From the NCBI RefSeq assembly GCF_014898095.1, contig NZ_CP062946.1, forward strand, positions 372,001 through 436,000: a stretch of 64,000 nucleotides of DNA, written 5' to 3'. Below the pieces are notes generated by a model. It did no database searches. It saw only the letters and a program-made list of their open reading frames with translations, and was not told the DNA's origin. Position numbers and translations under genes: made by a program. Below are positions 393-3,803 of the stretch, piece by piece (position 1 is the first letter of the stretch; the number at the start of each line of letters is the position of its first letter). The stretch comes from Thalassotalea sp. LPB0316. GTDB lineage: Bacteria > Pseudomonadota > Gammaproteobacteria > Enterobacterales > Alteromonadaceae.

Positions 393-1508
393 TTACACTA
401 ATTCAAAATACTTGCTGAACACTTTATACAACTCTGTACCTTGATTAACGCTCGCTGACGCGAAATGTAAAATAGGAATCACATCGTGATCTAGACTGAT
501 ATAATGCAGTGCATCACCGTCGCCGTAATTATCCATTCGCAATATGCGTGCAAGTGGTTGGCCTGCCCTAAGCACCTGACCAAAATCAGCTAAATAGTCG
601 ACCATCCCGCCCATTGGTGAGTAAAACGCTTTGTAATCTTTCAAATAACAACCATAACGCGTGATATTCGATGGCACAAACTCGCTCGTATCAATAACTT
701 TTTTGTACTGCAAGTAACTCAAAATACTGCGTGCATCTTGCTCTGCGACATCTAAATCGATCAGCTCTTGTGAACCAAGCTCAACGGTAAAGCTCTCTCG
801 TTCAAGTTGATAAGCTATGCCTTTAGTTGCAAGCTGTTTCGACAACGACCACCAAGGGCAAAAAGTAGCTTCATCCATAGCACCATCAAAGCCATCTGGA
901 ATTAAAATCGTATGCTCAATGTCAAAATAACTAGCACTTGCTTTAGCGTATTCAGGACAATACAAATGCTTAGATGAGATGGGCCCGGTGTGCAAATCAA
1001 GTACGAGATCGGCTTGATGAGCCATTTTTTGCAGTTGATAGGCAATGCGCTGACCGGTTGTTAAACCGTATTGGTTGTGTTCGAGTTTTTGTTCAATATT
1101 ACCAACCAATAACTGTTGAAATTGTTGATCGATCTCAGCTTGTGGTTGATTTGTTAAGTGATCAACAAAGTCAGTAATTTGCGCTTGGTTGTAATGATAC
1201 ATCCGATTCCAGTTAACGCCGGTTATTGGATCAAAACGCCCTAACGTGTACTCCCCATTTTTGTGATTTGCACCTACTGGGTTGGCATATGGAACTAGAG
1301 TAATATCACCTAAAACCGGCAACGTTTTTAATAGCTCTAATAATTGATAAATAACAGCATTACCTTGTACTTCGGCGCCGTGCATATTCGCCTGAATATA
1401 AACACTTGGTCCCTCACCTCGCCCCTTAATGCTATAAACAGGCACAGTCAATTTTGCACCAGAGGCCATTTCACCCATTGAAAGTACTGTTTTATTGATT
1501 GTTGTCAT
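393..1508 (-). CDS. Succinylglutamate desuccinylase/aspartoacylase-family (M14) deacylase
   Basis: This 371-residue protein has the zinc-hydrolase pattern of the AstE/aspartoacylase family. H43 and E46 in HGAEVQG and H173 in DLHTG are the expected zinc ligands, NWNR near 99-102 is the carboxylate-binding arginine motif, and E243 in TVELG is the expected catalytic glutamate. The family removes an N-acyl group (succinyl, acetyl) from an amino acid. It is the last gene of a three-gene operon, only 4 bp after the decarboxylase, with a good ribosome site (GAGGTAA). Because the operon starts with a lysine riboswitch and a DapD-like acyltransferase, I infer that it deacylates the N-succinyl (or N-acetyl) diaminopimelate intermediate, a job usually done by the M20 enzyme DapE. 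The substrate is not proven by sequence. Confidence 0.8.
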   Translation of the reverse strand: MTTINKTVLSMGEMASGAKLTVPVYSIKGRGEGPSVYIQANMHGAEVQGNAVIYQLLELLKTLPVLGDITLVPYANPVGANHKNGEYTLGRFDPITGVNWNRMYHYNQAQITDFVDHLTNQPQAEIDQQFQQLLVGNIEQKLEHNQYGLTTGQRIAYQLQKMAHQADLVLDLHTGPISSKHLYCPEYAKASASYFDIEHTILIPDGFDGAMDEATFCPWWSLSKQLATKGIAYQLERESFTVELGSQELIDLDVAEQDARSILSYLQYKKVIDTSEFVPSNITRYGCYLKDYKAFYSPMGGMVDYLADFGQVLRAGQPLARILRMDNYGDGDALHYISLDHDVIPILHFASASVNQGTELYKVFSKYFELV

Positions 1509-1512
1509 TAAT

Positions 1513-2745
1513 TTACCTCAAATACCAAGTTGGCGACTGCGGCTCGCGAACTAATTCAAATGTTAAATTTTCAAAGACATATTCAGCGGCTATGTCATGG
1601 CATAAAAAGAACGGCATACTTTCGGTAAAACCGTAAGCACCACATAAACCGAAGAGCAATGCATCGCCAACCGCTACGTCATTTGGCAAGGCAAATATGC
1701 CCAGCTTATCCATACTCGTACACAACGGACCATGCACGTGATAGTTTTCACTTACTTGATTGGACGTTCGCAACATTCGCGCAGGAAACGGCTGACTAGT
1801 GATCGCAGGACGCAATAAATGGTTGATACCACCGGCAAGGATTAATTGCTGCTCACCAGCATTGAGCTTTTTATCAACGATTGGTGCGACGTAGTAACCA
1901 GCTTGAGCAACGGCATAACGACCGAGCTCTAGCCAAATTTCTTTTACCTGCGCTTTGGCTTTGATTTCAGCTAGATCTCGCATCGCCATTGACCAATCAA
2001 TTGCTTGGCCGGTTTGCAGGTAATCAATGCCCAAACCGCCACCTAAATCGAGAATCTCGAGTTCGAAGCCCAAATCCTCAGCTAAACCAACCAAAGGTTC
2101 AATCATTTGTGACCACAAACTAAACATTTTGGCATTACTGAGCATATTGCCCCATTGGAAAATATGGATGCCACAAATGTTAAGTGCAGGAAAATCACTA
2201 AGCTTGATCGTTTGCCATTGTTCAAGGTTTAGACCAAAAGGGGTTAGCTCATTACCACCTAACGGGTTTTTCTCACCTTCTGGCCACTGTAATTGGACCC
2301 TCAGCAAGACTGTTGGAGTAATTTTATTGTCCTGTGCAAGCTCATTAAGCCAGGCTAATTGATTGATGCTTTCGACGACAAAAGTATTTACCCCTTTATC
2401 GATAAATCGCTGCAACTGGCGTTTAGATTTAGCTGGCCCAGTATTTAAAATATTTTTCGCACTAACCCCTTGCGCTAACACTTGCTCAAGCTCGCCGTCA
2501 CTTGCCACATCAAAACAAAACCCTTGTTGAGCAATCGTTTGAATCACCCTAGATAATGGGTTTGCTTTTACCGCAAACCACAATTTGACAACATCTTGTT
2601 GCTGCAAGTTTGCTAAGTGCAGCCTGAGCTTATCGAGGTGATAGATAAAATAACCGTGTTCACTCGAAAAATGGTTGTGATGATCTTCAATCGCTCGAAT
2701 AAATTCTGGGGCAATAATATGGGGTAACTGGCTCACTTGATTCAT
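1513..2745 (-). CDS. PLP-dependent fold-III decarboxylase (LysA/BtrK-like)
   Basis: A 410-residue alanine-racemase-fold decarboxylase. K60 in FAVKANP is the Schiff-base lysine. GGGLGIDY is the glycine-rich phosphate-binding loop. GPLCTSMD and the late CGAYGF are the C-terminal active-site motifs seen in diaminopimelate decarboxylases and related enzymes. The GPLCTSMD form is closer to my memory of BtrK-like and other type III PLP decarboxylases than to classical LysA. It sits between the DapD-like and AstE-like genes with 4-bp gaps, so the three are almost certainly co-transcribed and, from the leader, lysine-regulated. The simplest reading is meso-diaminopimelate decarboxylation to lysine. 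Decarboxylation of a related diamino acid is the alternative. Confidence 0.82.
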   Translation of the reverse strand: MNQVSQLPHIIAPEFIRAIEDHHNHFSSEHGYFIYHLDKLRLHLANLQQQDVVKLWFAVKANPLSRVIQTIAQQGFCFDVASDGELEQVLAQGVSAKNILNTGPAKSKRQLQRFIDKGVNTFVVESINQLAWLNELAQDNKITPTVLLRVQLQWPEGEKNPLGGNELTPFGLNLEQWQTIKLSDFPALNICGIHIFQWGNMLSNAKMFSLWSQMIEPLVGLAEDLGFELEILDLGGGLGIDYLQTGQAIDWSMAMRDLAEIKAKAQVKEIWLELGRYAVAQAGYYVAPIVDKKLNAGEQQLILAGGINHLLRPAITSQPFPARMLRTSNQVSENYHVHGPLCTSMDKLGIFALPNDVAVGDALLFGLCGAYGFTESMPFFLCHDIAAEYVFENLTFELVREPQSPTWYLR

Positions 2746-2749
2746 CGTC

Positions 2750-3499
2750 TTACCTCAACAGAGATTCAAGCTCTAGTGCTGCATCACTTTGCTCATCGCG
2801 ATACTTAACAATCAAAGCACAACTCATTTGTAAGCCTTGCGCTTGTCCCCATGCACTTGATACCGGTCGAGAACCTTGGACAACAATCGCATTTTCAGGA
2901 ATAGGTGCGCCGCGCTCAAGCTGATATTCATGAACACAATCATATACTGGCATAGAGGCGGTTAGGTTTACGCCTGGCGCTAATACCGCACCTTGCTTAA
3001 CAACACGTCCTTCAACAACCACGACACCGGCCCCTAAAAACGCGTTATCTTCAATGATCACTGGGTTAGCGCCAATTGGCTCAAGGACACCACCGATTTG
3101 AACTGCGGCACTCAAATGCACGTTTTTACCAATTTGTGCACACGAGCCAACAAGTGCGTGACTATCAACCATAGTGCCAGAATCGACAAATGCACCAATA
3201 TTAATATAAGCAGGAGGCATAATAATCACGCCACTGGCAACGTATGCCCCCGCCCTAACTGAACTACCACCCGGCACCATTCTGACACCTCGTTCGGGCG
3301 TAAAAGCTTGGGTAGGTAAATTGTGCTTATCGACAAAACCTTGGTAAGGTGATGAAAAACTTGTGTTTTCGCCCGCTTTAAAGACTTCTAATATAGCTTG
3401 CTTAACTTGCGTATTAGCATGCCATTGACCTTGTTCATCTTGATATGCGGCACGCACAGTGCCTTGTTCTAATTGTGATAGCGTTTCTTGCCAATTCAT
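2750..3499 (-). CDS. dapD: Tetrahydrodipicolinate N-succinyltransferase-like (DapD family)
   Basis: This 249-residue protein is a left-handed beta-helix acyltransferase with hexapeptide repeats. Stretches such as DSGTMVDSHALVGSCAQIG, VHLSAAVQIGGVLEP and ANPVIIEDNAFLGA closely follow E. coli DapD. DapD transfers succinyl from succinyl-CoA to tetrahydrodipicolinate in lysine and diaminopimelate synthesis, in the cytoplasm. It is about 25 residues shorter than the usual 274, mainly at the N-terminus. It is the first gene of the operon, 132 nt downstream of a lysine riboswitch aptamer, with an AAGGTT ribosome site. A second, canonical dapD may exist elsewhere in the genome. Acetyl instead of succinyl donor use cannot be excluded. 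Confidence 0.85.
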   Translation of the reverse strand: MNWQETLSQLEQGTVRAAYQDEQGQWHANTQVKQAILEVFKAGENTSFSSPYQGFVDKHNLPTQAFTPERGVRMVPGGSSVRAGAYVASGVIIMPPAYINIGAFVDSGTMVDSHALVGSCAQIGKNVHLSAAVQIGGVLEPIGANPVIIEDNAFLGAGVVVVEGRVVKQGAVLAPGVNLTASMPVYDCVHEYQLERGAPIPENAIVVQGSRPVSSAWGQAQGLQMSCALIVKYRDEQSDAALELESLLR

Positions 3500-3552
3500 T
3501 GGATAACCTTATGTTTAAAAACTGATACAGCAAAACAAGAAGGTTTTAAGCC

Positions 3553-3585
3553 GCCTTGAACTTACTGCAAATTAAAGCTCAAGGC
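3553..3585 (-). promoter_or_regulatory. Hairpin in the expression platform of the lysine leader
   Basis: GCCTTGAGCTT on the minus strand can pair with AAGTTCAAGGC (11 bp, one G-U pair) around an 11-nt loop. It lies between the aptamer and the dapD start. The RNA after it lacks a clean U-run, so attenuation by a classical terminator is uncertain. Control of translation or Rho access is equally possible. Confidence 0.45.
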
Positions 3586-3631
3586 ATGTGATATGACAGG
3601 TGCGATATAGCCCCTGAAGATATGACATAAA

Positions 3632-3798
3632 CCAGAAGCTCTCCACCAGATACGGTGACAATTGTCAGGATTCAACCTAAACAACCGACAACATGCTCAT
3701 CAAATAGCAGGTCGTCTCGGCATTAATCCCCCTCACTACCCGTCGTTGGAGTTTGATCTCCTCGAAGTAGCTACCTGGTTAATGCTCCTCTTCTGACT
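3632..3798 (-). promoter_or_regulatory. Lysine riboswitch (L-box) aptamer
   Basis: On the minus strand the conserved L-box elements appear in order: AGAAGAGGAGC, GGTAGTGAGGGGGA, ATGCCGAGACGACC, GGTTGAATCC, TTGTCACC and GGTGGAGAGCTTCT. These match the E. coli lysC leader block by block. The closing P1 helix forms between GTCAGAAG and CTTCTGGT. Binding of lysine is expected to reduce expression of the downstream dapD-decarboxylase-deacylase operon. It is the only structured leader in the 563-bp gap between that operon and rsmC. Confidence 0.93.
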
Positions 3799-3803
3799 TT
3801 GTT

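Follow-up and report, generated by a model that had tools for sequence, protein, structure and literature searches.

A lysine-riboswitch operon of Thalassotalea sp. LPB0316 as a candidate lysine-dedicated branch of the succinylase pathway

The succinylase branch of lysine synthesis runs through DapD, DapC/ArgD, DapE, DapF and LysA, with DapD and the aminotransferase yielding N-succinyl-LL-diaminopimelate (N-succinyl-LL-DAP). To our knowledge, known DAP-type lysine routes end with LysA acting on meso-DAP, so that lysine and the supply of the cell wall are coupled. Listed lysine-riboswitch operons containing dapD include dapA-dapD-lysA-hypothetical1-hypothetical2 in Pseudoalteromonas haloplanktis and lysC-dapB-dapA-dapD-lysA in Bacteriovorax marinus (PMC5584792, accessible part). 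We analyzed a 64,000-nucleotide window of the genome of Thalassotalea sp. LPB0316 (3.55 Mb, single contig, 100% complete by a computed estimate), in which a lysine riboswitch precedes minus-strand genes for a DapD-like acyltransferase (DapD2), a fold-III pyridoxal phosphate (PLP) decarboxylase (DEC) and an AstE/AspA-type deacylase (M14). Like the succinylase branch, this system would start at tetrahydrodipicolinate (THDP) with a DapD-family enzyme. It differs in that the decarboxylase belongs to another clade, an M14 enzyme takes the place of the M20 deacylase, the operon lacks dapE and dapF, and decarboxylation probably precedes deacylation.

We lean, by a little, toward the view that the operon encodes a lysine-repressed, lysine-dedicated succinylase branch in which decarboxylation comes first and deacylation last. 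In this route, DapD2 would succinylate THDP, and an ArgD/DapC-type aminotransferase encoded outside the operon would make N-succinyl-LL-DAP. DEC would remove the carboxyl group at the free L-amino end of that compound to give N2-succinyl-L-lysine, from which M14 would take off succinate to release L-lysine. DapE, DapF and LysA would be bypassed, lysine leaving before meso-DAP, and canonical dapD, dapE and dapF would keep supplying meso-DAP for the cell wall. When lysine rises, its binding to the riboswitch would shut the branch. The chances seem about even that this is an unrecognized lysine route, spread over several bacterial classes and running via N2-succinyl-L-lysine, which uncouples lysine supply from meso-DAP and the cell wall and is the only lysine route in some lineages (Cysteiniphilum and relatives).

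The riboswitch (3800-3628, minus strand) matched the Rfam lysine model RF00168 over its full length (positions 1-182 of 182) with 99.3 bits against a gathering score of 30 (E 3.4e-25). It was the sole Rfam match over the gathering score within the window and the best place in a genome-wide search, which found two lysine riboswitches in total. The other (G000:C1:2115653-2115824; L117 2654-2825, plus strand; 81.4 bits) is followed, after 176 bases, by an open reading frame for a lysC-like aspartate kinase (ORF; L117 3002-4357). Between the aptamer and the first gene is a 128-base leader (3500-3627), for which a fold of 3480-3800 predicted an 11-bp hairpin (z -1.95). A classical terminator was considered in this leader and rejected, as no terminator-like site was called on the minus strand between aptamer and gene, though the hairpin is predicted. 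The three ORFs follow on the same strand with 4-base gaps, DapD2 at 3499-2750, DEC at 2745-1513 and M14 at 1508-393. The complete L-box leader and the three genes described in an initial annotation of this DNA were thus recovered in place.

To survey the spread of the operon, GTDB genomes were scanned with DapD2, and the best 80 loci of at least 563 relatives were compared with flanks of up to 4.5 kb (several contigs were shorter). DEC was present in 63 of these 80 loci and M14 in 60, always alongside DEC; all three genes were found as ORFs of more than 200 amino acids in 58. The order dapA-dapD2-DEC-M14 occurred in 41 loci, dapD2-DEC-M14 with nothing else recognized in 8 (in one of them M14 is split in two), and lysC-dapA-dapD2-DEC-M14 in 2. 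Nine more carried lysC-dapB-dapA-dapD2-DEC and M14 on one strand, contiguously in seven and with a few other genes between DEC and M14 in two (L062, L070). DEC stood without M14 in three loci, including L043, whose contig ends inside DEC, and was absent from 17, largely Balneolota and Bacteriovoracaceae. No dapE, dapF or canonical lysA was found in the fetched flanks of any of the 80 loci. The operon of L063 also holds asd. Hosts include Thalassotalea, Colwellia, Pseudoalteromonas, Photobacterium, Bacteriovoracia and Cysteiniphilum, as well as single alphaproteobacterial, deltaproteobacterial and Oligoflexia metagenome-assembled genomes (MAGs). Pairwise distances of the three proteins correlated over the 58 loci (r 0.88, 0.92 and 0.81, values inflated by shared ancestry). 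The three genes are an ancient set and move together. At one locus of Colwellia psychrerythraea (L018 6682-7727), the M14 gene is divided between two ORFs, of which the second runs to the end of the contig; a frameshift or an assembly error may be the cause.

The riboswitch accompanies the operon. A scan of 30 of the 80 loci, including 27 of the 63 with DEC, found it in 14/15 loci of a first batch (the miss was L012) and 11/15 of a second. The second-batch misses were L057 and L059, both without DEC, and L068 and L079, whose contigs begin 398 and 147 bases before dapD2. In all, 24 of the 27 DEC loci scanned had a lysine riboswitch. Among further operon fragments from relatives, of which seven of nine were scanned, it lay upstream of lysC in L133, L135 and L141; fragments L138, L140, L142 and L143 stop inside lysC or no more than 36 bases from it. 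A class I aminotransferase directly follows DEC in two relatives (L141, L142), and an amino-acid permease follows in two (L138, L143). Because the operon in Bacteriovoracia, Cysteiniphilum and others starts at lysC (lysC-dapB-dapA-dapD2-DEC-M14), mostly under a lysine riboswitch, its product is most likely lysine. These findings bear out the proposals of lysine control and of a self-contained variant of the lysine pathway made in the initial annotation; its other suggestion, a related diamino acid as product, is unlikely, since in other groups the operon has aspartate kinase as its first gene and the same riboswitch in control.

DEC (1513-2745, minus strand; 410 amino acids) has the Orn/DAP/Arg decarboxylase fold. 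It scored 192.8 bits against the lysA model TIGR01048, under the cut-off of 297.9, and is 29% identical to the canonical LysA of its own genome. When 29 of the 64 DECs were placed in a tree with 15 LysAs, a branch with 100/100 support separated the two groups; two long LysA branches were flagged. The closest solved proteins by profile were SbnH (6knh, 6knk) and BtrK (7ru7, 2j66), at 203 to 207 bits, with the best LysA structure at 196 bits, a small margin of 7 to 10 bits. The PLP lysine, K60, was kept in all of the 64 DECs and 15 LysAs aligned. Sixty-three of these DECs reach the C-terminal motif (C342-T343 here), and in every one the catalytic Cys is kept and followed by Thr, whereas Glu follows it in 15/15 LysAs. 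In SbnH and BtrK, too, the Cys is followed by Thr. The Arg of the RP motif, R312, was kept in 63/63 DECs and 15/15 LysAs; neither SbnH nor BtrK has Arg at this place, and SbnH has one a position earlier. Judged by its separate clade and by the Thr in place of the LysA Glu, DEC is not LysA, in agreement with its earlier description as BtrK-like rather than plain LysA.

These residues point to a substrate. In the accessible part of a study of such enzymes, the side-chain amine of the substrate makes contact with the acidic residue after Cys in LysA, and the DAP carboxylate with an Arg (R343) in the specificity helix (PMC7857480). The same source gives N-citryl-L-diaminopropionate as the substrate of SbnH, Met as the residue after the catalytic Cys of FigC, and L-amino acids as the substrates of SbnH, FigC and BtrK, which serve siderophore or antibiotic synthesis (PMC7857480). 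DEC resembles these acyl-amino-acid decarboxylases in having no acidic residue after the Cys, but it keeps the RP motif of LysA and sits in a lysine operon rather than a siderophore or antibiotic cluster. A free-amine substrate is disfavored for DEC because the residue expected to bind such an amine has been lost, and R312 probably reads the distal carboxylate. N-acyl-DAP, which has the distal carboxylate and no free distal amine, would fit both features, and we propose that DEC is an N-acyl-LL-DAP decarboxylase.

M14 (393-1508, minus strand; 371 amino acids) contains the catalytic domain PF24827 (AstE_AspA; 97.6 bits against a cut-off of 25). The M14 AstE/aspartoacylase family cleaves N-acyl-L-amino acids, and we propose that this member is an N2-acyl-L-lysine deacylase. 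Residues H43, E46, R102, H173 and E243, reported as intact in the initial annotation, were identical in 59/59 aligned sequences (the window and 58 loci). On alignment with E. coli AstE, the zinc-site and catalytic residues H43, E46, H173 and E243 are shared, and N50, N101, R102 and E248 of M14 differ. No AstE model was among the NCBIfam matches at E 0.01, and no DapE model (M20 family, TIGR01246) matched in Pfam and NCBIfam profile searches. Its solved but unstudied relatives 3LWU and 3FMC matched at 424 to 426 bits. The M14 step is placed after decarboxylation, not before.

DapD2 (2750-3499, minus strand; 249 amino acids) scored 299.9 bits against PRK11830, a THDP N-succinyltransferase model (cut-off 204), and 196.6 against the dapD model TIGR00965 (cut-off 375.4), and is 41% identical to the canonical DapD of the host genome. 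The PRK11830 match favors succinyl rather than acetyl as the acyl group. Enzymes of the pathway were compared across 48 genomes, for which no completeness was stated, 33 with DEC and 15 without; M14, classical DapD and DapL were followed in a subset of 38 (23 with DEC, 15 without). Classical DapD was over the cut-off in 8 of the 38. Because the remaining 30, two Photobacterium genomes with canonical DapE among them, yielded no DapD other than DapD2, this enzyme very likely feeds an ordinary pathway there and is a genuine THDP acyltransferase.

Profile searches of the host genome found canonical dapD (480.3 bits; cut-off 375.4), dapE (539.9; cut-off 361.8) and lysA (540.7; cut-off 297.9) elsewhere, with dapF, 67.5% identical to E. 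coli DapF, adjoining lysA. By sequence, the trio is a second, diverged set beside these genes. The absence of DapE noted in the initial annotation therefore stands for the operon; for the genome it is ruled out.

Across the 48 genomes, LysA was over the cut-off in 41 and DapF in 45. Those without an over-cut-off LysA were G025, G030, G031 and G032 with DEC (G025 and G032 are MAGs) and G042, G043 and G048 without. Cysteiniphilum litorale and Cysteiniphilum sp. JM-1 carry the trio and have no LysA over the cut-off; JM-1 has the whole operon, and the C. litorale contig begins 147 bases before dapD2. Of 30 genomes grouped in the family of Cysteiniphilum, a genus that NCBI assigns to Fastidiosibacteraceae, 12 had LysA over the cut-off. 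Of the 18 others, 8 have a DEC verified by its motif and a dapD2 neighbor (G030, G031, G051-G054, G063, G076), 3 show the SbnH-like type in the retrieved fragments (G050, G055, G074; these do not include a further match in G055), and 7 gave no decarboxylase match of at least 100 bits. In G063, DEC has no adjacent M14, and a further 184-bit match is present. Four Bacteriovoracaceae loci (L066, L073, L088 and L089, from G038, G040, G046 and G047) belong to genomes with DapD2, DapF (partial in G040) and LysA; no over-cut-off DapE or DapL, no DEC and no full-length M14 was found in these four.

The presence of M14 follows DEC, not a lack of DapE. Full-length M14 (at least 430 bits) was found in 21/23 genomes with DEC and 0/15 without (Fisher p 8.8e-9, not corrected for ancestry), and 10 of the 21 also hold an over-cut-off DapE. 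This distribution weakens the proposal, made in the initial annotation, that M14 replaces DapE; as a pure DapE stand-in, M14 is retained as a live but weaker rival. In its full form, M14 would be a nonhomologous DapE and DEC a divergent LysA acting on meso-DAP, giving a lysine-controlled second succinylase copy that borrows DapF. We regard this as doubtful. DapF is indeed over the cut-off in nearly all of the genomes, and another desuccinylase is needed where DapE_proteo is under the cut-off, as it is in 13 of the 33 genomes with DEC, and where DapL is not found (TIGR03542 over the cut-off in 0/38; the search did not extend to the second DapL model, TIGR03540). DapE_proteo was over the cut-off in 20 of 48 genomes, all gammaproteobacteria with DEC. 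However, none of the 15 genomes without DEC has an over-cut-off DapE, and M14 is absent from all of them. M20 proteins exceeded the Pfam cut-off in 19 of 20 genomes poor in DapE, and an unrecognized M20 DapE is therefore possible. DEC also lacks the Glu of LysA, and dapF is in no operon locus.

Several observations nevertheless weigh against a branch that decarboxylates N-succinyl-LL-DAP. Canonical LysA is also carried by 29 of the 33 genomes with DEC, the host included. In the 13 where DapE_proteo is under the cut-off, M14 could make LL-DAP. Two genomes (G026, G028) have DEC and no full-length M14, and no M14 adjoins DEC in four relatives (L138, L141, L142, L143). Two Cysteiniphilum genomes hold another M14 gene of the same family, its catalytic residues intact, that overlaps dapF at its end, an arrangement expected of a DapE substitute and possibly serving the cell-wall branch in that way; this could mean that M14 enzymes are able to make LL-DAP, or that each branch has its own deacylase. 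R312 was matched to the published R343 as the only invariant Arg in that alignment segment, on conservation and not on numbering, and its carboxylate role is taken from LysA only, SbnH and BtrK having no RP motif at the aligned place. Were M14 to deacylate first, DEC would act on the L-center of LL-DAP and only DapF and LysA would be bypassed. The use of L-amino acids by SbnH, FigC and BtrK (PMC7857480, accessible part) and the lack of dapF in the operon agree with this order, but LL-DAP carries a free distal amine, the expected partner of the lost acidic residue, which makes it very improbable. We also think it improbable that the trio makes another lysine-related compound, such as a diamino acid or an acyl-diamine of secondary metabolism, in which case the riboswitch would respond to lysine as a signal of the precursor. 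The co-occurring canonical LysA would suit such a role, as would the siderophore and antibiotic functions of SbnH, FigC and BtrK (PMC7857480, accessible part), but operons that start at aspartate kinase hold no further tailoring gene, control is by the end product lysine, and some genomes have no other LysA candidate over the cut-off.

A branch leaving at N-succinyl-LL-DAP would, if true, explain why a second, lysine-controlled set stands beside complete dapD, dapE, dapF and lysA. It would be built from known enzyme families and probably represents a new order of steps in the lysine pathway. It would correct the labels "diaminopimelate decarboxylase" and "succinylglutamate desuccinylase" on many genes of marine and predatory bacteria, suggest a function for 3LWU and 3FMC, and mean that SbnH/BtrK-type acyl-amino-acid decarboxylases serve primary metabolism too. 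Our search of titles and abstract openings, with most subscription journals and bioRxiv outside its range, found no publication proposing an N-succinyl-lysine or alternative lysine route. The published Pseudoalteromonas and Bacteriovorax operons match the loci of the same groups found here in riboswitch class and gene order; in the accessible part of that report, the decarboxylase is named lysA, the genes after it are hypothetical, and no alternative route is proposed (PMC5584792).

The Cysteiniphilum stretches in which the second M14 overlaps dapF (L114 2536-6874, L115 253-4106) also carry genes of fabF and fabG type alongside, together with one weakly resembling fabZ. After the trio in P. 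haloplanktis lies a gene for a phospholipase A1 (L048 7785-8906; PF02253), probably the one that the published operon lists as "hypothetical2" and without a link to lysine.

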